Source: Streptomyces marispadix (GTDB taxonomy: Bacteria; Actinomycetota; Actinomycetes; Streptomycetales; Streptomycetaceae). From it: a stretch of 64,000 nt of DNA. The translations under genes and the position numbers were made by a program. Shown piece by piece: positions 4,858-62,031 of the stretch. The notes under the pieces are model-generated. The model had not been told where the DNA came from. It saw nothing but the letters and a program-made list of their open reading frames with translations, and ran no database searches. Each line of letters opens with the position of its first letter. Positions within the stretch are counted from its first letter, which is position 1. The DNA lies in the NCBI RefSeq assembly GCF_022524345.1, contig NZ_JAKWJU010000002.1:1240001-1304000 (forward strand), in the 5' to 3' direction.

Positions 4858-5795
4858 CCGGGGCAGCCGGGGGGCGGTACGAACCCCGCATCGACGTCGC
4901 GAAGTTGACGGCCATCGACGTCCATACGCACGCCGAGGTCTCGGCCGACGGACACGGCTCGCTGAGCCCCGAACTCTTCGGCGCCTCCGCTGAGTACTTC
5001 AAGTTGCACACCGAACGGCAGCCCACCGTCGGGCAGATGGCGGACCACTACCGCCAACGGCAGATGGCAGCCGTCGTCTTCACCGTCGACGCCGAGCACG
5101 CCACCGGGCATCCCCGCATCTCCAACGAGGAGATCGCCGAGACCTGCGCACTCCACTCCGACGTGCTCATTCCCTTCGCCGGTGTCGACCCCTGGAAGGG
5201 CAGGGCCGCAGTGCGGGAGGCGCGCAGGCTCGTAACCGAATTCGGCGTACGCGGATTCAAGTTCCACCCCAGCCTCCAGGCGTTCGCTCCGGACGACCGG
5301 ATGGCCTACCCGCTCTACGAGGCGATCGAGGAACTCGGCGTGCCCGCCCTCTTCCACACCGGCCAGACCGGCATCGGCGCCGGCGTGCCGGGCGGCGGCG
5401 GCATCCGGCTGAAGTACAGCAACCCGATGCTCGTCGACGATGTCGCCGTGGATTTCCCCGAGTTGCGCATCGTCCTCGCCCACCCCTCCTTCCCCTGGCA
5501 GGACGAGGCGCTGGCGGTGGCCACGCACAAGCCGCACGTGCACATCGACCTCTCCGGCTGGTCGCCGAAGTACTTCCCTCCCCAACTGGTCCGTTACGCC
5601 AACAGTCTGCTCAAGGACAAGGTCCTCTTCGGCTCCGACTACCCGGTCATCACGCCCGACCGCTGGCTTTCCGACTTCGGCAGGCTGGAGATCAAACCCG
5701 AAGTACGTCCCAAGATCCTCAAGGAGAACGCGGCCCGGCTGCTCGGCCTCACCGTGCCGGACGCCGACCGCCCGATGCAGGGAGGCCGCTCATGA
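4854..5795 (+). CDS. Amidohydrolase-2 family hydrolase, candidate beta-ketoacyl-CoA hydrolase (CouO-like)
   Basis: A 313-residue metal-dependent hydrolase of the amidohydrolase-2 (ACMSD-like) family. The metal motif HxH is in IDVHTHAEVS near the N-terminus, further ligands are the His in ALFHTGQTG and in VLAHPSFPW, and the active-site Asp is in LFGSDYPVI. In Rhodococcus, a protein of this kind (CouO) cleaves 4-hydroxyphenyl-beta-ketoacyl-CoA. The flanking SDR, hydratase and CoA ligase fit that role, so I propose it hydrolyses an aryl-beta-ketoacyl-CoA. The GTG start overlaps the SDR stop and its own stop overlaps the MaoC start, so translation is coupled. Confidence 0.75.
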   Translation: MTGAAGGRYEPRIDVAKLTAIDVHTHAEVSADGHGSLSPELFGASAEYFKLHTERQPTVGQMADHYRQRQMAAVVFTVDAEHATGHPRISNEEIAETCALHSDVLIPFAGVDPWKGRAAVREARRLVTEFGVRGFKFHPSLQAFAPDDRMAYPLYEAIEELGVPALFHTGQTGIGAGVPGGGGIRLKYSNPMLVDDVAVDFPELRIVLAHPSFPWQDEALAVATHKPHVHIDLSGWSPKYFPPQLVRYANSLLKDKVLFGSDYPVITPDRWLSDFGRLEIKPEVRPKILKENAARLLGLTVPDADRPMQGGRS

Positions 5796-41512: not shown

Positions 41513-44500
41513 ATGGCACCTACCACCACAGTCCTGACTTCCGACAACGACCCCTCCTTCTGCGGGGAACCCGTCGTCTTCACTGCGACGGTGACCGACA
41601 CCTCTTCGACGGCTCAGCCGACCGGTACGGTCTCCTACTTCGTCAGCCAGGACGGGCCGTCGCAGACGGTCCCGCTGACTCCAGGGCCCGGGCCGTTCGA
41701 GAGCACCGCCTCGACGACTCCGATCGTCTTCGACACGACCGGTGAACACGCGACGGTCGCGCTCTACACCAGCGACAACCCGGCACTGTTCGACAACTCG
41801 ACGTCGCCCGTCTTCAATCAGACCGTCGATCCGGCGACGACCGGGGTCAGCATCACCACAGACCCGGCGAGTCCGTTTCTGTGTGGAAGCCAGGTCGAAG
41901 TCTGCGCCACCGTCGCCAACAACGACGTGCCCGGCAACATCCCCACCGGCACCGTCATCATCACCGAACCCGGCGGGACCAGTTCACCGCCCGTCACCGT
42001 CGATCCGACCGGACAGGCGTGCTTCACCTTCCCCAGCATCGACACCGCCGGCGACATCACGGCGACCTACATCAGCGACGACGCGTGCTTCAGCAACTCG
42101 AACGCCGTGGCCGGTGTGACCCTGACCGCTGGTGCCACGACGGCGACGACCAGCATCACCACGACCGGCCCGTACTTCTGCGGACAGCCGGTAGAGGTGT
42201 GTGTCCAGGTCGACAACACCGATGTACCCGGCAACATCCCCACCGGCACCGTCATCATCACCGAACCCGGCGGGACCAGTTCACCGCCCATCACCGTCGA
42301 TCCGACCGGACAGGCCTGCTTCACCTTCCCCAGCATCGACACCACCGGCAACGTCACGGCGAGTTACACCAGCAGCGACCCTGACTGCTTCACCGACGCC
42401 ACCGCTCCAGGCGTACTGCTCACCATCACCCCCGCCACCACCACGGCGACGACCAGTATCACCACGACGGGCCCGTACTTCTGCGGCCAGCCGGTAGAGG
42501 TGTGCGTCCAGGTCGCCAACACCGATGTGCCCGGCAACATCCCCACCGGCACCGTGGTGATCACCGCACCCGACGGCGGCACCTCCGGACCCGTCACCGT
42601 CGACCCCACCGGGCAGGCGTGCTTCACCTTCCCCAGCATCACCAACAGCGGCAACATCACCGCCACTTACACCAGCAGCGACCCTGACTGCTTCACCAAC
42701 GCCACCGCCACGGCCCTCCCAATCACCATCACCCCGGCGAACACCACGGCGACGACCAGCATCACCACGACCGCCCCGTACTTCTGCGGCCAACCGGTAG
42801 AGGTGTGCGTCCAGGTCGCCAACACCGATGTACCCGGCAACATCCCCACCGGCACCGTGGTGATCACCGCACCCGACGGCGGCACCTCCGGACCCCTCAC
42901 CGTCGACCCCACCGGACAGGCCTGCTTCACCTTCCCCAGCATCACCAACAGCGGCAACATCACCGCCACCTACACCAGCAACGACCCCGACTGCTTCACC
43001 AACGCCACCGCCACCGCCCTCCCGATCACCATCACCCCCGCCACCACCACGGCGACCACGACCATCGAAACCACCGGCCCCTACTTCTGCGGCCAACCCA
43101 TCGAAGTCTGTGTCCAGGTCGCCAACACCGACGTACCCGGCAACACCCCGACCGGCACCGTCATCATCACCGAACCCGGCGGGACCAGTTCACCGCCCAT
43201 CACCGTCGACCCCACCGGACAGGCCTGCTTCACCTTCCCCAGCATCACCAACAGCGGCAACATCACCGCCACCTACACCAGCAGCGACCCCGACTGCTTC
43301 ACCAACGCCACCGCTCCAGGCGTACTGCTCACCATCACCCCCGCCACCACCACGGCAACCACGACCATCGAAACCACCGGCCCCTACTTCTGCGGCCAAC
43401 CCATCGAAGTCTGCGTCCAGGTCGCCAACACCGACGTACCCGGCAACACCCCCACCGGCACCGTCATCATCACCGAACCCGGCGGGACCAATTCACCGCC
43501 CATCACCGTCGACCCCACCGGGCAGGCCTGCTTCACCTTCCCCAGCATCACCAACAGCGGCAACATCACCGCCACCTACACCAGCAACGACCCCGACTGC
43601 TTCACCAACGCCACCGCCACCGCCCTCCCGATCACCATCACCCCCGCCACCACCACGGCGACCACGACCATCGAAACCACCGGCCCCTACTTCTGCGGCC
43701 AACCCATCGAAGTCTGTGTCCAGGTCGCCAACACCGACGTACCCGGCAACACCCCCACCGGCACCGTGGTGATCACCGCACCCGACGGCGGCACCTCCGG
43801 ACCCATCACCGTCGACCCCACCGGACAGGCCTGCTTCACCTTCCCCAGCATCACCAACAGCGGCAACATCACCGCCACCTACACCAGCAACGACCCCGAC
43901 TGCTTCACCAACGCCACCGCCACCGCCCTCCCGATCACCATCACCCCCGCCACCACCACGGCGACCACGACCATCGAAACCACCGGCCCCTACTTCTGCG
44001 GCCAACCCATCGAAGTCTGTGTCCAGGTCGCCAACACCGACGTACCCGGCAACACCCCGACCGGCACCGTGGTGATCACCGAACCCGGCGGGACCAGTTC
44101 ACCGCCCGTCACCGTCGATCCGACCGGGCAGGCGTGCTTCACCTTCCCCAGCATCACCAACAGCGGCAACATCACCGCCACCTACACCAGCAGCGACCCC
44201 GACTGCTTCACCAACGCCACCGCTCCAGGCGTACTGCTCACCATCACCCCCGCCACCACCACGGCAACCACGACCATCGAAACCACCGGCCCCTACTTCT
44301 GCGGCCAGCCGGTAGAGGTGTGTGTCCAGGTCGCCAACGCCGACGTACCCGGCAACACCCCCACCGGCACCGTGGTGATCACCGCACCCGACGGCGGCAC
44401 CTCCGGACCCGTCACCGTCGATCCGACCGGGCAGGCCTGCTTCACCTTCCCCAGCATCACCAACAGCGGCAACATCACCGCCACCTACACCAGCAACGAC

Positions 44501-47500
44501 CCCGACTGCTTCACCAACGCCACCGCTCCAGGCGTACTGCTCACCATCACCCCCGCCACCACCACGGCAACCACGACCATCGAAACCACCGGCCCCTACT
44601 TCTGCGGCCAACCCATCGAAGTCTGTGTCCAGGTCGCCAACACCGACGTACCCGGCAACACCCCCACCGGCACCGTGGTGATCACCGCACCCGACGGCGG
44701 CACCTCCGGACCCATCACCGTCGACCCCACCGGACAGGCCTGCTTCACCTTCCCCAGCATCACCAACAGCGGCAACATCACCGCCACCTACACCAGCAAC
44801 GACCCCGACTGCTTCAGCAACGCCACCGCTCCAGGCGTACTGCTCACCATCACCCCCGCCACCACCACGGCAACCACGACCATCGAAACCACCGGCCCCT
44901 ACTTCTGCGGCCAACCCATCGAAGTCTGTGTCCAGGTCGCCAACACCGACGTACCCGGCAACACCCCGACCGGCACCGTGGTGATCACCGAACCCGGCGG
45001 GACCAGTTCACCGCCCGTCACCGTCGACCCCACCGGACAGGCCTGCTTCACCTTCCCCAGCATCACCAACAGCGGCAACATCACCGCCACCTACACCAGC
45101 AGCGACCCCGACTGCTTCACCAACGCCACCGCTCCAGGCGTACTGCTCACCATCACCCCCGCCACCACCACGGCGACCACGACCATCGAAACCACCGGCC
45201 CCTACTTCTGCGGCCAACCGGTAGAGGTGTGTGTCCAGGTCGCCAACACCGACGTACCCGGCAACACCCCGACCGGCACCGTGGTGATCACCGCACCCGA
45301 CGGCGGCACCTCCGGACCCGTCACCGTCGATCCGACCGGGCAGGCGTGCTTCACCTTCCCGAGCATCACCAACAGCGGCAACATCACCGCGAGTTACACC
45401 AGCAGCGACCCTGACTGCTTCACCGACGCCACCGCCACGGCCCTCCCGATCACCATCACCCCGGCGAACACCACGGCGACGACCAGCATCACCACGACCG
45501 CCCCGTACTTCTGCGGGCAGCCCATCGAAGTCTGTGTCCAGGTCGCCAACACCGATGTACCCGGCAACATCCCCACCGGCACCGTGGTGATCACCGAACC
45601 CGGCGGGACCAGTTCACCGCCCATCACCGTCGACCCCACCGGGCAGGCGTGCTTCACCTTCCCCAGCATCACCAACAGCGGCAACATCACCGCCACTTAC
45701 ACCAGCAACGACCCCGACTGCTTCACCAACGCCACCGCCACCGCCCTCCCGATCACCATCACCCCCGCCACCACCACGACCACTGTCGGCACGACGCCCG
45801 AGGGTCCGTTCGTCTGCGGCCAGTCGGTCACGGTCTGCGCCACCGTCACCACAAGCACGCCAGGCGTCGGCACACTCGCCGGCACCGTGCTGTTCACCGG
45901 GGCAGGACTCAACGAGAGTGCGCCCGTCATCGACGGCCAGGCATGCCTCCCGCCCACGACGGCACTCACCTCCGGCACCATCACCGCCACCTACACCAGC
46001 GACGACCCCGACTGCGTGGCCGACTCAAGCGGCACCCTCGCGGTGGTAGTGGGCCCCGCGTCCACCACGACGGACATCACCACGACGCCCGCCGGCCCGT
46101 TCGTCTGCGGACAGTCCGTCACGGTCTGCGCCACCGTCACCACAAGCACACCAGGCAGCGGCACGCCCACCGGCACCGTCACCTTCACCGGGGCAGGACT
46201 CAACGAGAGTGCGCCCGTCATCGACGGCCAGGCATGCCTCCCGCCCACGACGGCACTCACCTCCGGCACCATCACCGCCACCTACACCAGCGGCAACCCG
46301 GGCTGCTTCGCCAACTCCAGCGATACACAAGGGGTGACGGTCAACCCGGCAACCACAACGACCAACGTGACCACGACGCCCGCCGGCCCGTTCGTCTGCG
46401 GACAGTCGGTCACGGTCTGCGCCACCGTCACCACAAGCACACCAGGCAGCGGCACGCCCACCGGCTCCGTACTCTTCACCGGGGCAGGACTCAACGAGAG
46501 TGCGCCCGTCATCGACGGCCAGGCATGCCTCCCGCCCACGACGGCACTCACCTCCGGCACCATCACCGCCACCTACACCAGCGGCAACCCGGGCTGCTTC
46601 GCCAACTCCACGGGCTCGCTGGCCGTCACCGTCAACCCGACCTCGACCTCGACCGTCGTCTCGGCCTTCCCCGCGACGTCGGTCTGCGGACAGGCGGTCA
46701 CCGTCTGCGCCGTCGTCTTCGCGAACGCGCCGGGCGGCGGCACACCGACCGGCTCCGTACTCTTCACCGGACCGGGCGGTCTCAACGAGACAGTGCCGGT
46801 GAACGGCGGCGGCCAAGCCTGCTTCACGTCCAGCACCCTGGTCAGCGGCCTCATCACCGCCACCTACACCAGCAACAACGCCTGCTTCACCGGCTCCTCC
46901 GGCACCCGGACGGTGACCGTGAACCCAGCGTCCACGACGACGACGGTCACCACGAATCCCCCGGGACCGTTCACGTGCGGGCAGTCGGTGGAGGTCTGCG
47001 TCGCCGTCGCGCCGGTCGCTCCCGGCAGTGGTACGCCGACCGGCTCCGTACTGCTGACGGGCGCCGGCCTCAACGAGCCGGTGGTCCTCGAGAACGGTCA
47101 GGGCTGTATCACCACGACGGCACTCACCTCCGGCACCATCACAGCCACGTACGCGAGCGCCACGCCGAGCTGTTTCGCCGCCTCTTCGGGTTCGCTGGCC
47201 GTGACCGTCAACCCGACGGCCACGACGACGACGGTCACCGTCGACCCGGTCACCTCGACCTGTGGACAACCGGTCACGGTCTGCGCAGAGGTGACCTCCA
47301 GTACGCCGGGCAGCGGCACGCCCACCGGCTCCGTACTCTTCACCGGGGCAGGGCTCAATGAGAGTGCGCCCCTCGTCGACGGCCAAGCGTGCCTAGCACC
47401 CACGGCGCTCACCTCCGGCACCGTCACCGCCACGTACACCAGCGACGACTCCGCCTGCTTCGGCAACTCGTCCGACACGCAGGCAGTCACCGTCAACCCG

Positions 47501-49264
47501 TCGCAGACCACCACAACGGTCACGGCGACGCCGGACACCTCGGTCTGCGGCCAGGAGGTCACGGTCTGTGTGTCGGTCGACGCGGTCTTCCCACAGGCCG
47601 GTACACCGAGCGGAAGTGTTCTGGTCACCGGGCCCGGCGGGGTGAGCGAGACGGTGCCTCTTGACGAGAGCGGGGAGGCGTGCTTCTCGACGACCGAGCT
47701 CGCCACCGGCACGGTGAACGCCGTTTACACCAGCGACGACTCCGCCTGCTTCAGTGGCTCTTCCGGATCGGTCGGCGTCACCGTCGGCGCGGCGTCGACG
47801 ACGACCGCCGTCACCGCCGACCCCAGCACCTCGGTCTGCGGACAGCCGGTGCAGCTCTGCGCCACCGTCACCACCGACTCGCCCGGCAGCGGCACGCCCA
47901 CCGGCTCCGTGCTCTTCAGCGGGCCCGGCGGCTTCAGCCAGTCGGTCGGCCTCGTCGGCGGCCAGGCGTGCCACACCTCCACGAGCCTGGTGAGCGGAGT
48001 CATCACCGCCACCTACCTCAGCGACGACGCCGGCTGCTTCGCGGGCTCCAGCAGCACGACCACCGTCACGGTCAACCCGGCGCCCACCACGAGCAGCGTC
48101 ACGGCCAACCCGAGCACCTCGGTCTGCGGACAGCCGGTGCAGCTCTGCGCCACGGTCTCCTCCGCCGCCGGGACTCCGACCGGTGCCGTCACCTTCTCCG
48201 GGCCGGGGGGACCGCTTGGCAGCGCGATCCTGTCCGGCGGGCAGGGGTGCATCACCGTCAGCAACCTGACGAGCGGCACCGTCACGGTCAGCTATGCCGG
48301 TACGAGCTGCTTCGGCGCCTCCAACGGTTCCACAACGGTGACCGTCAATCCGGCGTCCACCACCACCGGCGTCACCGCTGATCCGAACCCGGCGGTGTGC
48401 GGCCAGTCGGTGGAGCTGTGCGCCACCGTCACCACGGCCTCGCCCGGCAGCGGCACGCCCACCGGCTCCGTGCTCTTCAGCGGGCCCGGCGGCTTCAGCC
48501 AGTCGGTCGGCCTGGTGGGCGGCGAGGGCTGCGTCACCGTCCCGTCGGCGGCGGCCGGCACCTACACCGCCCAATACACCAGCGCCAACCCCGGCTGCTT
48601 CAGCAGCTCTTCGGGAGCGGTCGCACTAGCGGTCAACAAGGCCGGAACCACCACCAGCGTCACCGCGACGCCCAACCCGGCCGCCTGCGGCCAGCCCGTC
48701 ACGGTCTGCGCCACTGTGGCGCCGGTGTCCCCCGGTTCCGGGGCGCCCAGCGGCACGGTCGTCTTCACCGGGCCCGGCGGGCTCAACCAGCCGGTCGGCC
48801 TCGTGGGCGGCCAGGCGTGCTTCACCTCTTCCAGCCTGGTCAGCGGCACGATCACGGCCACCTACAGCGGTGATCAGTGCTTCCTGAACTCGGTCGGCAC
48901 GGTGAACTTCCAGTCCAGCCAGCAGACCACCACGGTCACGGCACCGCCGGCGCAGGTCCGGCTGCGCACCAACGGCACGTGGGTCATCCCGGCCATGAGC
49001 GCCACGCTCACGACTTCGGGAGGCGCCCCGGTCGCAGGCCAGACGATCACATTCGTCGCCAACGCGGTGGGCGGACCGATCGCTCTGGGCTCCGCCGTGA
49101 CCAATGCGAGCGGTGTGGCGACCCTTGCTCCGCCGACCATCACCGTCCCGCCTGGGATCGTCACAGCGAAGTCGTACAGGGCGTCGTTCGCGGGTGCGGC
49201 GTGCCTCTCGCCGTCCTCGGGCAACGGGACCCTGACCGTGGTCAGCTCACCGCTCCTGCCCTGA
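41513..49264 (+). CDS. Giant Cys-rich Ig-like repeat protein, no signal peptide
   Basis: A 2583-residue protein made almost wholly of about 26 bacterial Ig-like (Big_3-type) domains of 90-101 residues. Domain 1 (residues 1-108) is divergent; domains 2-14 (type A) are nearly identical, 101 residues each, pattern PYFCGQP-EVCVQV ... GQACFTFPS ... DPDCF; domains 15-25 (type B) are more varied (CGQSVTVCATV, GQACLPPTT); domain 26 is a Cys-poor cap. Each type A or B domain has four Cys, about 98 in all, enough for two disulfides per domain. The ATG at 41513, after GAAAGGGG, is the most upstream start in frame and gives MAPTTTVLTSDNDP, so there is no signal peptide, membrane helix, LPxTG or other anchor. 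Export route and role are unknown; a long rigid filament is likely. Confidence 0.85.
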   Translation: MAPTTTVLTSDNDPSFCGEPVVFTATVTDTSSTAQPTGTVSYFVSQDGPSQTVPLTPGPGPFESTASTTPIVFDTTGEHATVALYTSDNPALFDNSTSPVFNQTVDPATTGVSITTDPASPFLCGSQVEVCATVANNDVPGNIPTGTVIITEPGGTSSPPVTVDPTGQACFTFPSIDTAGDITATYISDDACFSNSNAVAGVTLTAGATTATTSITTTGPYFCGQPVEVCVQVDNTDVPGNIPTGTVIITEPGGTSSPPITVDPTGQACFTFPSIDTTGNVTASYTSSDPDCFTDATAPGVLLTITPATTTATTSITTTGPYFCGQPVEVCVQVANTDVPGNIPTGTVVITAPDGGTSGPVTVDPTGQACFTFPSITNSGNITATYTSSDPDCFTNATATALPITITPANTTATTSITTTAPYFCGQPVEVCVQVANTDVPGNIPTGTVVITAPDGGTSGPLTVDPTGQACFTFPSITNSGNITATYTSNDPDCFTNATATALPITITPATTTATTTIETTGPYFCGQPIEVCVQVANTDVPGNTPTGTVIITEPGGTSSPPITVDPTGQACFTFPSITNSGNITATYTSSDPDCFTNATAPGVLLTITPATTTATTTIETTGPYFCGQPIEVCVQVANTDVPGNTPTGTVIITEPGGTNSPPITVDPTGQACFTFPSITNSGNITATYTSNDPDCFTNATATALPITITPATTTATTTIETTGPYFCGQPIEVCVQVANTDVPGNTPTGTVVITAPDGGTSGPITVDPTGQACFTFPSITNSGNITATYTSNDPDCFTNATATALPITITPATTTATTTIETTGPYFCGQPIEVCVQVANTDVPGNTPTGTVVITEPGGTSSPPVTVDPTGQACFTFPSITNSGNITATYTSSDPDCFTNATAPGVLLTITPATTTATTTIETTGPYFCGQPVEVCVQVANADVPGNTPTGTVVITAPDGGTSGPVTVDPTGQACFTFPSITNSGNITATYTSNDPDCFTNATAPGVLLTITPATTTATTTIETTGPYFCGQPIEVCVQVANTDVPGNTPTGTVVITAPDGGTSGPITVDPTGQACFTFPSITNSGNITATYTSNDPDCFSNATAPGVLLTITPATTTATTTIETTGPYFCGQPIEVCVQVANTDVPGNTPTGTVVITEPGGTSSPPVTVDPTGQACFTFPSITNSGNITATYTSSDPDCFTNATAPGVLLTITPATTTATTTIETTGPYFCGQPVEVCVQVANTDVPGNTPTGTVVITAPDGGTSGPVTVDPTGQACFTFPSITNSGNITASYTSSDPDCFTDATATALPITITPANTTATTSITTTAPYFCGQPIEVCVQVANTDVPGNIPTGTVVITEPGGTSSPPITVDPTGQACFTFPSITNSGNITATYTSNDPDCFTNATATALPITITPATTTTTVGTTPEGPFVCGQSVTVCATVTTSTPGVGTLAGTVLFTGAGLNESAPVIDGQACLPPTTALTSGTITATYTSDDPDCVADSSGTLAVVVGPASTTTDITTTPAGPFVCGQSVTVCATVTTSTPGSGTPTGTVTFTGAGLNESAPVIDGQACLPPTTALTSGTITATYTSGNPGCFANSSDTQGVTVNPATTTTNVTTTPAGPFVCGQSVTVCATVTTSTPGSGTPTGSVLFTGAGLNESAPVIDGQACLPPTTALTSGTITATYTSGNPGCFANSTGSLAVTVNPTSTSTVVSAFPATSVCGQAVTVCAVVFANAPGGGTPTGSVLFTGPGGLNETVPVNGGGQACFTSSTLVSGLITATYTSNNACFTGSSGTRTVTVNPASTTTTVTTNPPGPFTCGQSVEVCVAVAPVAPGSGTPTGSVLLTGAGLNEPVVLENGQGCITTTALTSGTITATYASATPSCFAASSGSLAVTVNPTATTTTVTVDPVTSTCGQPVTVCAEVTSSTPGSGTPTGSVLFTGAGLNESAPLVDGQACLAPTALTSGTVTATYTSDDSACFGNSSDTQAVTVNPSQTTTTVTATPDTSVCGQEVTVCVSVDAVFPQAGTPSGSVLVTGPGGVSETVPLDESGEACFSTTELATGTVNAVYTSDDSACFSGSSGSVGVTVGAASTTTAVTADPSTSVCGQPVQLCATVTTDSPGSGTPTGSVLFSGPGGFSQSVGLVGGQACHTSTSLVSGVITATYLSDDAGCFAGSSSTTTVTVNPAPTTSSVTANPSTSVCGQPVQLCATVSSAAGTPTGAVTFSGPGGPLGSAILSGGQGCITVSNLTSGTVTVSYAGTSCFGASNGSTTVTVNPASTTTGVTADPNPAVCGQSVELCATVTTASPGSGTPTGSVLFSGPGGFSQSVGLVGGEGCVTVPSAAAGTYTAQYTSANPGCFSSSSGAVALAVNKAGTTTSVTATPNPAACGQPVTVCATVAPVSPGSGAPSGTVVFTGPGGLNQPVGLVGGQACFTSSSLVSGTITATYSGDQCFLNSVGTVNFQSSQQTTTVTAPPAQVRLRTNGTWVIPAMSATLTTSGGAPVAGQTITFVANAVGGPIALGSAVTNASGVATLAPPTITVPPGIVTAKSYRASFAGAACLSPSSGNGTLTVVSSPLLP
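41837..45769 (+). repeat. Type A repeat array, 13 copies of about 303 bp
   Basis: In-frame tandem units encoding domains 2-14 of the giant protein. The period is 303 bases (300 for the first). Neighbouring copies between about 43050 and 45250 differ at few positions, and differences come as exchangeable blocks (for example EPGGTSSPP versus APDGGTSGP, or ATALPITITPA versus APGVLLTITPA), the pattern expected from unequal crossing-over and gene conversion. Confidence 0.9.
45770..48919 (+). repeat. Type B repeat array, 11 diverged copies of about 286 bp
   Basis: In-frame units encoding domains 15-25. They keep four Cys, the TTT start and the SGTITATYTS strand but differ much more from each other than the type A units, so they are older duplications. 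Confidence 0.85.
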
Positions 49265-51201: not shown

Positions 51202-51991
51202 TGTGATCTGCGTGCGGCACAACCGCGTACGTCGCACCTGAGTTCGGCAGACCCGAGCGCCTACGTGCGTCAGGCATACGTAGGACGGCAACACCTGCGA
51301 CAGAGCGCGCACAGCGAGAACGAGAGCGCACGTTCAGAGCGCAGCACGGCAACGCACCATCGAGAGCGCACGATTGAGGGCGGAGAGCCCGCGGCATGAC
51401 CAGGGGCCGCGGCGCCCGGCTCGACCGGCCGGGAGCGCACCTCCGCCGCGCACAGGGGGAAGCCCCGCCCGACCGCTCCGGGCGGGCTCCAGATCCGTCC
51501 CCTGCATCAGCCGCGCCCTGCTACGGGCCGACTCGGCGCGGAATCCGGCGAGTTGAGCCGAACCGAGGCGAGCCAGGCCACTCGGAGGCGAGCCGGAGGC
51601 GAGCCGGGTGACAGACACCTCCCCGGCGTCCCATCGCGAGCGGAGACATCGAGCCATCGAGCCCGCACGCCGGTGAGCCCGCAGGGCGACCGACTCCCCG
51701 TGCACGCACTGGCTTTCGCCGTTCGACCGCGCCCCGCACGCCCCGCGCACGGAGCGGCCGGCGTACGCCGGGATGCGCACCGTGTGACGTGTCACAGACA
51801 ACGTGTACATGGATGTGGGAGCTTCAACTCCGTTACTCATCAGTAGAGTTGGGGTTCCGAGGGTGAGGTCCGGCATGGCGGGCCGCACCGGCCGACGCGC
51901 CGCGTCCACGGCAGCGCGCCGCCGGGCGGCACCGAGATCCCGTGAAGGACATACGGCTCGGAAGGCCGGCCCGCAGGCGGGAGAGGATCGG
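51202..51991. other. 790-base gene-free region before the oxygenase operon
   Basis: No convincing gene. It has short direct repeats: GAGAGCGCACG near 51320-51375 and GAGGCGAGCC three times near 51563-51610. The operon promoter probably lies at about 51783-51849. Confidence 0.45.
51783..51849 (+). promoter_or_regulatory. Crp-like palindrome and candidate promoter of the oxygenase operon
   Basis: TGTGACGTGTCACA (51783-51796) has exact TGTGAC/GTCACA arms and fits the actinomycete Crp pattern GTG-N6-CAC. A possible -10, TAGAGT (51844-51849), lies about 50 bases on, with a weak TTCAAC 15 bases before it. The leader to the first gene would be about 135 bases. Confidence 0.4.
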
Positions 51992-52861
51992 ATGAGCACT
52001 TCGGAAGCGACCACACTGGACGAGCTGGTCGACACGGACCGGTATCCCCTCGCGGACCTCGACGGTCACCGCGGACGCGACGTCCTCTCCCGTGCGAGGA
52101 AGGATCTGCTGGCCGAAGGGTGCACCGTACTGCCGGACTTCATCCGGCCCTCCCTCCAGCGGACGCTCCAGCAGGAGTGCGCGGCCATGGCCCCGCGGGC
52201 GCACTTCGACGTCGCGACGGTCAACGTCTACAACATGGCGGCCGGCCCCGACCTGCCCGAGGAGCACCCGGGACGCATGGCCTTCGAGCGCGGCAACGCC
52301 TTCGTCGCCCGCGACCGCATCCCCGCAGGCTCCCTCATCAGCCGCCTCTACTCCGACGTGGTCTTCCAGCGCTTCATCGCCCGCTGCTTCGACCTCGGGG
52401 AGCTGCACGAGCTGGCGGACCCCCTCTCCGGGCTCGTGCTCAACGTCGTCGAGCCCGGCATGGAGCACCCCTGGCACTTCGACACCAACGAGTTCACCGT
52501 CAGCATGCTCACCCAGGAGGCCGAGGAGGGCGGAGTCTTCGAGTACTGCCCCAACATCAGGTCGGCGGACGAGGAGAACTTCGACGGGGTGCGCGACGTG
52601 CTTCAGGGCAGGGGCGAGGGGTCGACCCGGCGCCTGCGGCTTCGGCCCGGCGACCTCCAGCTCTTCAAGGGCCGCTTCTCGCTGCACCGCGTCAGCCCCG
52701 TGCGGGGCGGTCTCGCCCGGCACTCGGCGATCTTCGCCTACAGCGAGCGGCCCGGTGTCGTGGGGAGCGTGTCCCGTACTCAGCAGCTCTTCGGACGCGT
52801 ACTGCCGGAGCATCTGGAGGCGCAGGGCCGCGCGGTGCGCGGCGACCGGCTGCTCGACTGA
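51992..52861 (+). CDS. Fe(II)/2-oxoglutarate-dependent oxygenase (ArpA/HalD-like)
   Basis: A 289-residue oxygenase of the double-stranded beta-helix type. The iron triad is H162-x-D164 in WHFDTNEFTVSML plus H232 in FSLHRVSPV, with a downstream Arg in LARHSAIFAY for 2-oxoglutarate. The family includes actinomycete ArpA-like proteins and the amino-acid halogenases BesD/HalD; those halogenases have Gly where this protein keeps Asp164, so hydroxylation is expected, not chlorination. The likely substrate is a free amino acid (inference). ATG 51992 with GGAG nearby; first gene of a three-gene operon. Confidence 0.82.
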   Translation: MSTSEATTLDELVDTDRYPLADLDGHRGRDVLSRARKDLLAEGCTVLPDFIRPSLQRTLQQECAAMAPRAHFDVATVNVYNMAAGPDLPEEHPGRMAFERGNAFVARDRIPAGSLISRLYSDVVFQRFIARCFDLGELHELADPLSGLVLNVVEPGMEHPWHFDTNEFTVSMLTQEAEEGGVFEYCPNIRSADEENFDGVRDVLQGRGEGSTRRLRLRPGDLQLFKGRFSLHRVSPVRGGLARHSAIFAYSERPGVVGSVSRTQQLFGRVLPEHLEAQGRAVRGDRLLD

Positions 52862-52932
52862 CCCCCTGCCTCCCCCCATCGCCCACCTCCCGCCGTGAGT
52901 CCCCCGCCCCGGCCACCTCCACAGGAGCAGTC

Positions 52933-53895
52933 GTGCGCTTCGACGCCACCGGAAAAGTCACGCTCGACCACATCTACAACCAGCCCGATCCACGGGCGTA
53001 CTTCAGGGAGTTGCGCAAGCTCGACTACTGCGTGCCGCAGCAGGCGAAGCCCTACTTCGCCAAGCTCATCGAGGAGTACCGCGACGCCCGGCAGGTCGCG
53101 GTGCCCAAGGTGCTCGACATCGGCTGCTCCTACGGGATCAACGCCGCGCTGCTGAAGTACGACGTGACCATGGACGCGCTCTACGCCCGCTACTGCGACG
53201 AACACCTCGACGCCGGCGACGGATCGGACCCGCGCGCCGAGGAGTCCCCTGAGGCCCTGCTGGCCCGCGACCGCAGACTGGCCCGCGCTCACCGTCCGGT
53301 GCGCCCGGTGAGCGTCACCGGTCTCGACACCTCCGGCAGCGCACTGTCGTATGCGCTGGAGGCGGGCTTCCTCGACGACGCGGTCCACGCCGACCTGGAG
53401 CGCGCCGAGCCCTCGCCGCGCCAGCGTGAGCAGTTCGCCGGTACGGATCTGGTGATCTCGACGGGCTGCATCGGCTATGTCACCGAGCGCACTCTTACGC
53501 GTATCGTCCGCTCCATGGGAGAGCGGCGGCCGTGGATGGCGCACTTCGTGCTGCGCATGTTCCCGTTCGGCCCCGTGGAGAAGGCACTTGAGGAGCTGGG
53601 ATACAGCACGGTGTGCGCCGGTGACGTCTTCCGGCAGCGCCGGTTCGCGTCGGAGCAGGAGCAGACGCAGGTGCTGGAGACGATGAAGGAGGCCGGGGTC
53701 GACGCGGACGGCCTGGAGGCCGACGGCTGGCTCCACGCACGGCTGTATCTTTCCCGTCCCGCCGGCACCGAGGGGTGGCCGTGGTCCCCGGAGCGTCTCG
53801 CGCGGGAGACCGCCGCCGCACCGGGCCCTGCCGAGGGCCCGCCGACGTCCCCGCGCACCCCATCCGTCACCCGACCCGTCGACGAACCGAAGTGA
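52933..53895 (+). CDS. Class I SAM-dependent methyltransferase
   Basis: A 320-residue methyltransferase. Motif I is VLDIGCSYGINAAL at about residues 60-73, followed by an unusually long insertion (DEHLDAGDGSDPRAEESPEA) before the second SAM strand VTGLDTSGSALSYAL and motif STGCIGYVTE. The last 35 residues are Pro/Thr-rich. I cannot assign a methyl acceptor. It follows the oxygenase by 71 bases (GTG 52933 after AGGAG) and its stop overlaps the next start (GTGA at 53892). Confidence 0.82.
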   Translation: MRFDATGKVTLDHIYNQPDPRAYFRELRKLDYCVPQQAKPYFAKLIEEYRDARQVAVPKVLDIGCSYGINAALLKYDVTMDALYARYCDEHLDAGDGSDPRAEESPEALLARDRRLARAHRPVRPVSVTGLDTSGSALSYALEAGFLDDAVHADLERAEPSPRQREQFAGTDLVISTGCIGYVTERTLTRIVRSMGERRPWMAHFVLRMFPFGPVEKALEELGYSTVCAGDVFRQRRFASEQEQTQVLETMKEAGVDADGLEADGWLHARLYLSRPAGTEGWPWSPERLARETAAAPGPAEGPPTSPRTPSVTRPVDEPK

Positions 53896-55742
53896 GAACG
53901 GAATTGAACACCAGTCAGCCGAGCGCGCCCCAGGGAAGCGGAAGCGCCCCGACCACCCCCACGTTCGCGCTGGAGGAGACCCTGCCGCGCGTACCGCTGC
54001 CCACGCTGGAGGCGAGCTGCGAGAAGTTCCTCGAGTGGTGCGCGCCGCTGCTTCCCCCGGGCGAACTGGCCGCGACCAAGGAGGAGGTGGCGGCCTTCCT
54101 CGCCGCCGACGGACCGGGCCGTACGCTGCACGCGGCGCTGGAGGAGTACAACTCCTCGGAGGGCGTGCACAGTTGGCTCGACACCTTCTGGCCGTACCGC
54201 TATCTGGGGCGGCGTGACCGCATCGCGCTGAACGCCAACTTCTTCTTCCTCTTCAGGGACTCCGACGAGCAGCAGGTCGAGCGGGCGGCCGGACTCATCG
54301 CCGGCGCCCTCGACTTCAAGCGGCAGATCGACGAGGAGGCGATCCCGCCGGTCGTGCAGCGGGGCAGGCCGCAGTCGATGCAGCAGCTCAAGTACCTCTT
54401 CTCCAGCACCCGCATTCCGGGAACCGAGCAGGACACGTCCCGTACGCCGTATTCGCAGGAGCGGCCCGGACCGTCCCGGGCGCGCCACATCCTGGTCTTC
54501 TTCCGCGGCAACATCTTCCGCATGGACGTCGTCGGAGAGGACGGCGCGCCGCACGACCTGGAGGACCTTCAGGCGGGGCTGCGCGACGTGATGAAGGCCG
54601 GCGCCGAACCGGCCGCCCCCGGCACGTCGGTGGGCCACCTCACCACCATGGCCCGCGCGGACTGGGCACGTGCGCGTGCGTCGCTGCTGGACGTGGATCC
54701 CGGCAACGCCGAGGCCCTGCGTACGGTCGAGGACGCGCTGTTCTGCGTGTGCCTGGAGGACTTCGCGCCTTCGGGCGTCCAGGAGGCGTGCGACGAGCTG
54801 CTGTACGGGGACCGCGGCAACCGCTGGTTCGACAAGTCCGTGTCGTTCGTGGTCTTCGAGGACGGTCGCGCCGGGCTGAACGTGGAGCACTGCGAGCTGG
54901 ACGGCACCACCATCCTCAGCTTCGTCGACGCGCTGCTGCCCGTTCCGGCGTCGGTGCACTCCGAGCAGTCGGGTGCACGGGCACAGGGCCCGCCGTCGAC
55001 GGAGCCGGTGCGCTTCACGCTGAACGATGCGCTGCGCGGCCAAGTGCGCACCGCCGCCGAGGAGTTCGCGGAGTACGGACGCAGCACGGCGACCCGCACG
55101 GTCACCTTCGACGATTTCGGCAGCAACAACGCGAAGTCGCTCGGCGTCTCGCCGGACGCCTTCGTGCAGGCGGCCTACCAGTTGGCGCACCGGAGGGCCA
55201 AGGGCCATCTGGGCGCCACCTACGAGTCGATCGCCACGCGGCAGTACAGGCACGGCCGTACGGAGGCGATGCGCGTCGTCACCCCGGAGATGTTCGCGTT
55301 CACGGACGCCATGGAGGACCCGGAGGCGGACGCGGCGACGCGGCGCGCGGCCTTCCGGGCGGCGGCGGAGGGGCATGTGCGGCGTGCGAAGGAGTGCCAG
55401 GCCGTCGAGGCGCCCGAACAGCACCTGTGGGAACTGGAGTTGATCCAGCGGCGGCGGGGCGAGGAGCTGGGCGTGCCGGAGCAGCCGTCGCTGTACCGCA
55501 GCGCGGGCTGGCTGACGATGAGGGACGACTATCTGAGCACCAGCTCCGCTCCGTCCACCAACATCCAGTTCTTCGGCTTCGGTTCGACGAGCAGCCGCTG
55601 CATCGGCGTGGCGTATGTGCTGCTGCCGGAGCGCTTCAACCTCTATCTGAGCACGCCGCGTGCGGTGGCCGAGCAGATGCACACGTTCGCGGAGGAGTTG
55701 AAGGGCGCGGTGGCCGAACTGCGGGAGCTGCTCGCGGACTAG
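53892..55742 (+). CDS. Choline/carnitine O-acyltransferase family protein
   Basis: A 616-residue carnitine-acyltransferase-fold enzyme. It has the family opening LPRVPLPTLEASCEKFLEW, then YRYLGRRDRIALNANFFFLF, the catalytic His at about 333 in GLNVEHCELDGTTI, and the C-terminal STSSAPSTNIQFFGFGSTSS with the carnitine/CoA-site STS-type residues. It transfers an acyl group between CoA and the hydroxyl of carnitine or a related betaine. Such enzymes are mainly eukaryotic and uncommon in bacteria. The GTG overlaps the methyltransferase stop; a TTG at 53904 is an alternative. Confidence 0.88.
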   Translation: MRTELNTSQPSAPQGSGSAPTTPTFALEETLPRVPLPTLEASCEKFLEWCAPLLPPGELAATKEEVAAFLAADGPGRTLHAALEEYNSSEGVHSWLDTFWPYRYLGRRDRIALNANFFFLFRDSDEQQVERAAGLIAGALDFKRQIDEEAIPPVVQRGRPQSMQQLKYLFSSTRIPGTEQDTSRTPYSQERPGPSRARHILVFFRGNIFRMDVVGEDGAPHDLEDLQAGLRDVMKAGAEPAAPGTSVGHLTTMARADWARARASLLDVDPGNAEALRTVEDALFCVCLEDFAPSGVQEACDELLYGDRGNRWFDKSVSFVVFEDGRAGLNVEHCELDGTTILSFVDALLPVPASVHSEQSGARAQGPPSTEPVRFTLNDALRGQVRTAAEEFAEYGRSTATRTVTFDDFGSNNAKSLGVSPDAFVQAAYQLAHRRAKGHLGATYESIATRQYRHGRTEAMRVVTPEMFAFTDAMEDPEADAATRRAAFRAAAEGHVRRAKECQAVEAPEQHLWELELIQRRRGEELGVPEQPSLYRSAGWLTMRDDYLSTSSAPSTNIQFFGFGSTSSRCIGVAYVLLPERFNLYLSTPRAVAEQMHTFAEELKGAVAELRELLAD

Positions 55743-55773: not shown

Positions 55774-55811
55774 CACCTGGCCAATTGGCCGGTTGGCCGG
55801 TTGGCCAGGTG
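55774..55811. terminator. Hairpin after the acyltransferase
   Basis: CACCTGGCCAA (55774-55784) with TTGGCCAGGTG (55801-55811) enclose 16 bases made of the repeat GGCCGGTT. It lies 32 bases after the stop and probably ends the operon. Confidence 0.5.
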
Positions 55812-56534
55812 GGCCCGCCGAGTGGACCGCTGCATCGCGGAACTGCCGCCCGCGGAACGGGAGTTGCTGCTGGCAGCGCTGGCTCCGTCGGTACTGGACC
55901 CGCGGGGCGACGCGCTCCCGGCCCGGTCGGGGGCGGCACTGCCGGGGGCCGCCGGAGCCCATCTGGCCGCCGTCCGCGAGAGGTTCGCACCTGAGCGGCT
56001 GCTGGACCGGGAGGAGGAGCTGGCCGAACTGGTGGAGTTCTGCGCCGGAGATCAGCGGTACCTGTGGTGGCAGGCGGCTCCGTGGGCGGGGAAGACGGCG
56101 CTGATGTCCTCGTTCGTGCTGGAACCGCCGAGCGGTGTCGACGTGGCGTCGTTCTTCGTCACCCGCCGCCACGGCCCCGACGAGGCCCACAGCGGGCCCT
56201 GGCGAAGGCCGCAGCGCTCACCGGCGAGCACGCACGTGCCGACGCGTTCGCCCTGGCGATGCACTCCCGTGGTGAACGGGCCTCCGCACTGGTCGAGTCG
56301 GCAGCCGCCGACCTGCGTTTGAGGGAGGGCACCGCCGACGCCTCCCTGCGCGAGGAGTGCACGCTACGGGCGACACGGCGCGCGGCCGAGGCCCTGGCGC
56401 TGGAGGTGTGGACGCAGATCCACTGGGTCTTCCAGGACGGCAGCGGTCCGCTGTCGTTCGCGGTGAAGCTCGATCCGCGCTGTGCCGACGTGCTGCTGGA
56501 ACTGGGCTCGGGTGCCAGGGAGTTCGAGGCGTGA
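55801..56534 (+). pseudogene. Decayed AAA/NACHT-like NTPase gene (internal deletion and frameshift)
   Basis: The first part (frame of 55801) reads ERLLDREEELAELVEFC, then YLWWQAAPWAGKTALMSSFV with a Walker A (GKT), and FFVTRRH, as at the start of actinomycete NTPase-repeat proteins. Frame is lost near 56170-56200. A second part, in another frame to 56534, starts ALAKAAALTGEHARADAFAL, like the alanine-rich repeats at the far end of the same kind of protein, and ends in a distinct tail. The middle (Walker B and most repeats) is gone. Both halves could belong to one ancestral gene; this is inference. Confidence 0.6.

Positions 56535-59632: not shown

Positions 59633-62031
<2,399 letters not shown>

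Follow-up and report, generated by a model that had tools for sequence, protein, structure and literature searches.

A conserved oxygenase, methyltransferase and acyltransferase gene trio of actinomycetes with a probable acylated, carnitine-like product

Our analysis of a 64,000-nucleotide stretch of the Streptomyces marispadix genome (contig NZ_JAKWJU010000002.1, positions 1,240,001 to 1,304,000; the whole stretch is called the window here) shows three genes in tandem on the + strand, at 51992-55742, that are conserved together in actinomycetes far above chance. They encode an oxygenase (OXY), a methyltransferase (MT) and a carnitine-type acyltransferase (CAT), and a CAT of the OXY-MT-CAT kind is called "trio-type" below. 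We are confident that the three proteins serve one shared pathway, and its product is probably an undescribed acylated, carnitine-like small molecule. The chemistry we favour, in which an amino acid is hydroxylated, N-methylated and O-acylated to give an acyl-betaine, is put forward at slightly less than even confidence. The fullest version of this idea, that widespread undescribed metabolites are short-chain O-acyl esters of a hydroxylated amino acid betaine, specified by a three-gene operon whose operator is nearly unique in streptomycete genomes, is more tentative still.

The three genes and their joint distribution

The genes (in window coordinates) are:

51992-52861, + strand: OXY, 289 amino acids, ATG start at 51992; Fe(II)/2-oxoglutarate oxygenase of the BesD/HalD group with an HxD...H iron site (H162, D164, H232; R243)
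52933-53895, + strand: MT, 320 amino acids, GTG start at 52933 with AGGAG ahead of it, TGA stop at 53893-53895; class I S-adenosylmethionine (SAM) methyltransferase
53892-55742, + strand: CAT, 616 amino acids, GTG start at 53892, stop at 55742; choline/carnitine O-acyltransferase family, catalytic H333

A sequence-only reading of this DNA had proposed three tandem genes for a BesD/HalD-like oxygenase, a SAM methyltransferase and a carnitine-type acyltransferase. The genes are all there as described, and these family assignments hold up by Pfam, by alignment with CrAT and by fold comparison; none of the three proteins has an NCBIfam match at an E value of 0.01. The same reading considered MT and CAT to be translationally coupled. 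This is true of the window, where the CAT start and the MT stop overlap by 4 nucleotides (GTGA), but it is not a general trait, as the MT-CAT gap is negative in 36 of the 66 named loci (defined below) that have MT (median -4) and is elsewhere up to 399 nucleotides, with start codons chosen automatically. The extreme value of -1896 goes with over-long MT frames (loci L113 and L131) and is taken as an artefact.

The distribution of the trio was followed in a class sample of 296 genomes, a genus sample of 199 Streptomyces genomes, a phylum-wide draw of 296 genomes, and the "named loci", which are the best 80 of 174 relatives of CAT (94 more distant ones lie outside this set). In the MT and OXY searches of the class sample and the MT search of the genus sample, scoring was confined to the 7, 8 or 11 best candidates of a first look at each genome. 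OXY adjacency in the genus sample was checked for the window's own genome only, and bacteria outside the Actinomycetota were covered only by the named-genome search and 14 control genomes of the family searches. There is overlap between samples: judging by identical match coordinates, G493 appears to be the genome that holds locus L090.

The acyltransferase family PF00755 is present in 31 of the 296 class-sample genomes; 29 of these have a trio-type CAT, and two (G081 and G273) have a distant CAT and no OXY. OXY orthologues (E<1e-100) occur in exactly the same 29 genomes, and three genomes (G212, G232 and G264) have distant OXY paralogues only. Gene coordinates place MT between OXY and CAT in 26 of these genomes; G252 and G285 have it only as a solitary homologue elsewhere in the genome, and G017, the last of the 29, has the two CAT loci described further on. 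The sequence-only reading had staked itself on the genes occurring together in relatives, and they do so among the named loci as well: OXY adjoins CAT in 80 of 80 (in the opposite direction in L156), with MT in between in 66. These loci come from Streptomyces (38, one of them listed as [Kitasatospora] papulosa), Actinomadura (18), Nocardia (13) and Salinispora (3), with one each from Wenjunlia, Amycolatopsis, Saccharopolyspora, Frankia, Actinophytocola, Haloechinothrix, Pseudonocardia and a member of the Pseudonocardiaceae; those closest to the window's genome, which is 6.7 Mb in size, are from Streptomyces. In the genus sample PF00755 is found in 21 of 199 genomes, in 20 cases at trio-type scores, and MT adjoins CAT in 14 of these 20. 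The phylum-wide draw has PF00755 in only five of 296 genomes, and the sole match outside the class is a weak fragment. No CAT match was found among 72,556 plasmid records, which lends no support to the idea that the trio is plasmid-borne.

OXY-CAT adjacency is kept over at least 11 genera in differing surroundings. The divergences of OXY, MT and CAT are correlated (r 0.91-0.93, 65 loci), as common descent alone would likewise make them. In 21 regions and the 80 loci, with genes called by crude gene callers, no flanking gene family other than OXY, MT and CAT themselves was common to most genera, which suggests that the substrates are probably common metabolites. Membership in a larger biosynthetic cluster was considered and judged unlikely, neighbour clustering having given only these three families in most genera. 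A glutamine-synthetase-like gene (named by eye) lies near 17 of the 80 loci, 14 of them in Streptomyces and one each in Wenjunlia, Actinophytocola and Haloechinothrix.

Predicted activities of the three proteins

The alignments of OXY and of CAT each hold 100 copies (97 distinct sequences, three genomes being present twice); sequences shorter than 75% of the median length had been dropped beforehand (1 of 101 for CAT, 2 of 85 for MT and 0 of 100 for OXY). CAT matches PF00755 as a full-length domain (538.3 bits, cut-off 22.3, positions 1-573 of 574), and the catalytic histidine attributed to it earlier is indeed there, as H333, which aligns with that of CrAT and is present in 100 of 100 copies. 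When CAT (ACYLTRANSFERASE) is aligned with CrAT and CPT2, its residues W100, Y104, Y444, T457, S551, F563 and K415, which correspond to CrAT W102, Y107, Y452, T465, S554, F566 and K423, are also kept in all 100; the CrAT K419 position is CAT residue 411, which is variable. The cation pocket typical of carnitine and choline acyltransferases is thereby retained. In CrAT, R518, T465 and T467 bind the carboxylate of carnitine, with R518 clamping it. This set is broken in CAT (the numbering agrees with PDB 1nm8): T465 is kept as T457, and R518 and T467 are replaced by Gln (Q510) and Ala (A459) in every one of the 100 trio CATs. Since R518 has become Gln in all of these, while three other bacterial CATs (L076, L077 and G375) have all kept Arg at that position, the acceptor of the trio CAT is probably not carnitine; it is probably still cationic. 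Mutation of T465, T467 and R518 reportedly shifts CrAT towards choline (Cordente and others, 2004). The CrAT M564 position, which presumably has a role in acyl-length choice, is Phe (F561) in 99 of the 100 trio CATs, and this substitution suggests that CAT uses short acyl groups.

OXY matches the Pfam HalD family PF23169 (50.6 bits, cut-off 26), and its model groups by fold with enzymes that act on free lysine or ornithine. The His-x-Asp/His iron site seen earlier is present as W-H162-F-D164 together with H232, and H162, D164, H232 and R243 are each invariant in the 100 copies. Its predicted fold and site make OXY a BesD/HalD-type amino-acid oxygenase with the HxD site of a hydroxylase. A halogenase was considered and ruled out, as the Asp ligand D164 stands in 100 of 100 copies where halogenases have Gly or Ala. 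BesD E120 and D140, which contact lysine, correspond by offset to OXY L145 and T165, kept in 99 and 96 of the 100 copies respectively. Distant OXY paralogues (L072, L073, L074 and L075; 31-39% identical) have other actinobacterial surroundings, in stretches that contain no CAT, and WHFD is also found in those of L072, L074 and L075 that were aligned.

MT (METHYLTRANSFERASE) scores below every Pfam cut-off; of the 17 sequences in its alignment, 7 match Methyltransf_25 weakly. Its model nevertheless has the class I methyltransferase fold, a Rossmann fold that carries the SAM motif of the earlier reading as motif I (LDIGCSYG). C-, N- and O-methyltransferases tie in the fold search, which gives no pointer to the substrate.

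In the pathway we favour, OXY would hydroxylate a free amino acid or a simple amino acid derivative, MT would methylate the OXY product, most likely on nitrogen to give a quaternary ammonium, and CAT, working as carnitine acyltransferases usually do, would move a short acyl group from acyl-CoA onto the hydroxyl that OXY had introduced. Like choline and carnitine, the acceptor would be an O-C-C-N+ alcohol, but one whose carboxylate sits elsewhere than in carnitine; a beta-hydroxy-alpha-amino acid betaine and hydroxyproline betaine would be examples. The hydroxylation, N-methylation and O-acylation of the sequence-only reading fit these residues and folds, and the likelihood of a carnitine-like acceptor survives; carnitine itself, with R518 replaced by Gln, is not likely.

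The trio would be a compact conserved pathway in the well-studied genera Streptomyces, Actinomadura, Nocardia and Salinispora. PF00755 is a patchy family in bacteria, and here its acceptor site is altered in every aligned copy; with known folds and probably common substrates the question is directly testable. Should the proposal be correct, the products would be a new class of acylated betaines in bacterial chemistry, a bacterial counterpart of the carnitine and choline esters and amino-acid analogues of acetylcholine or acetylcarnitine. We found no description of the trio in the literature searched (for the trio, natural-product pathways with PF00755, BesD relatives and CrAT residues, in a body that excludes most subscription journals), including passages of PMC10187165 and PMC13255071 and a search of PMC13244439 by terms.

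Loci without the methyltransferase gene and alternative explanations

Because the MT folds tie, nitrogen was chosen as the MT target from the CAT pocket. MT might then not be an N-trimethylase at all: it could methylate carbon or oxygen, or make a mono- or dimethylamino group, so that the single pathway would yield an O-acylated hydroxy-amino acid derivative that has no quaternary nitrogen. We consider this unlikely, though not negligible, given that 100 of 100 CATs have the aromatic F563 along with the pocket residues seen in relatives that bind ammonium.

What weighs against the proposed pathway is the absence of MT from 14 of the 80 named loci, and methylation is thus less tightly tied to OXY-CAT than the sequence-only reading assumed. 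The OXY-CAT gap at these 14 loci is 8-446 nucleotides, with no MT remnant seen at E 1e-4. The CAT acceptor residues are the same in 14 of 14, so the acceptor seems unchanged there. A distant MT homologue (37-45% identical) lies elsewhere in 12 of the 14 genomes, as against 0 of 14 control genomes (P 6e-6; the controls are the first non-matching same-genus genomes of the PF00755 class search, were already MT-negative and are not an independent draw). MT homologues are present in 3 of 267 trio-less class-sample genomes (G131, G216 and G241), and in the genus sample in 39 of 179 trio-less genomes as compared with 6 of 6 trio genomes that lack MT at the locus (P 1.6e-4). One of the 39, G415, has a homologue 52% identical on a 10.7 kb contig and could represent a truncated trio. 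In several streptomycetes the solitary homologue occupies a fixed chromosomal setting whether or not a trio is present, so kinship confounds the association of MT in trans with MT-less trios. Seven of 19 stretches with a solitary homologue (L176, L177, L178, L179, L183, L186 and L188) share one neighbourhood, four of them from MT-less trio genomes and three from trio-less genomes; L174 and L175 share another.

The OXY-CAT pair may be the older core of the system. In a second alternative, the pathway core would consist of OXY and CAT, and MT would have its place elsewhere or at a later point (on the acylated product, for instance), being optional or supplied by a second gene. Its attractions are that OXY-CAT adjacency is complete (80 of 80) whereas MT is found in 66, and that a quick CAT tree calls for at least four changes to account for the MT-less state, two of them forced by well-supported branches; this state could be old. 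In addition, genome G017 has, at two CAT loci (L033 and L034), OXY, an MT remnant and CAT at one and an intact MT and CAT with no detectable OXY at the other, each having what the other misses. Nonetheless, MT does lie between OXY and CAT in those 66 loci and overlaps CAT in 36 of them (by automated starts), and we regard this alternative as distinctly unlikely.

De novo synthesis of carnitine or acylcarnitine, with MT making gamma-butyrobetaine, OXY converting it to carnitine and CAT acylating that, seems to us quite improbable. CAT is related to CrAT and CPT2 over its full length, and in the known route to carnitine hydroxylation comes after methylation; but the loss of both R518 and T467 from all trio CATs, with Arg retained in the other three bacterial CATs, and the match of OXY to the HalD family and BesD-group structures, speak against it. 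We give hardly any credence to co-located enzymes of unrelated routes with CAT as an acyl-CoA buffer, in view of the identical phyletic spread in the class sample and the adjacency in at least 11 genera with differing surroundings.

Control region, neighbouring genes and related systems

Upstream of and next to OXY lie the following features:

51783-51796, no strand: inverted repeat TGTGACGTGTCACA (TGTGAC-N2-GTCACA), presumed operator from upstream conservation
51824-51851, + strand: promoter-like block with TCAACT and a -10-like TAGAGT at 51844-51849, from an alignment of 8 upstream sequences
51980-51986, + strand: OXY ribosome-binding site GGAGAGG, from the window sequence; the same in 8 of 8 aligned upstream sequences

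Of 39 Streptomyces/Wenjunlia loci, 37 carry the repeat upstream of OXY with no more than two mismatches, as compared with 0 of 39 control stretches; its chance level is 0.75% of letter shuffles (all 80 upstream stretches). Outside these genera it occurs, with two mismatches, in L108 (Pseudonocardiaceae) and L117 (Amycolatopsis), and it was not seen upstream in Actinomadura (0 of 18), Nocardia (0 of 13), Salinispora (0 of 3) or the other five single genera. The exact repeat is present at two places in the window genome; in ten other trio genomes, picked for an exact site at the operon, it is present at one place in seven, two in two and three in one. With one mismatch allowed there are nine places in the window genome against two for the reversed control. 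A -10-like pattern follows in 27 of 40 repeat-bearing upstream stretches (window included), at 43 or 44 nucleotides from the repeat in 16, at 24 in four (about two helical turns less) and at 41 to 71 in the rest, these last being partly in another register of the search pattern. By likeness only, we take the repeat to resemble a CRP/FNR-type site. The Streptomyces operon is probably read from one promoter under its own operator, and the repeat would then control it.

The second exact site of the window genome (G000:C2:5926525-5926538; L196, site at 5026) lies 33 nucleotides ahead of a GntR-like regulator frame, a first candidate for the protein that binds the repeat, and 110 nucleotides from a divergent methyltransferase-like gene (both genes named by eye), and relatives G768 and G769 carry extra exact sites. 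Elsewhere in the window, a 2583-amino-acid open frame at 41513-49264 (+ strand), in which 15 stretches match the Big_3_5 Ig-like domain, probably encodes a surface or secreted protein. After CAT, overlapping small open frames at 55801-56530 (+ strand) give the impression of a decayed gene (55801-56319 has no Pfam match), and 59633-61852 (- strand) is an ordinary monomeric isocitrate dehydrogenase gene (PF03971, 1277 bits).

Among characterized proteins, CrAT, CPT2 and choline O-acetyltransferase (PDB 1nm8, 4eyw and 2fy2) have full-length homology to CAT (E 2e-64 to 9e-57) and share with it the catalytic His, the STS motif and the equivalents of T465 and F566; CAT differs from CrAT and CPT2 at the R518, T467 and M564 positions described above. 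OXY is 14-19% identical to the BesD, HalD and HalB halogenases and a lysine hydroxylase homologue (PDB 7jsd, 7u6h, 7u6i, 6nie and 9oet); the BesD/HalD halogenases have HxG where OXY has HxD, and its neighbours MT and CAT set OXY apart from BesD-group genes. A CAT-family enzyme next to methyltransferases is also found in a nonribosomal peptide synthetase (NRPS) cluster of the same genus (L172, G375:C1:556000-575000), where an NRPS with a reductase domain and a class III aminotransferase accompany a distant PF00755 enzyme and two methyltransferases, with a solitary trio-MT homologue about 5 kb on; this CAT is 28% identical to the trio CAT and keeps the Arg (SERHL), and there is no OXY match in the stretch. 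Carnitine biosynthesis (TMLH and BBOX) is like the trio in outline, in that 2-oxoglutarate-dependent hydroxylation and N-methylation furnish an alcohol for a carnitine acyltransferase; it uses another oxygenase family than that of OXY, and by its residues the trio CAT does not appear to be built for carnitine.

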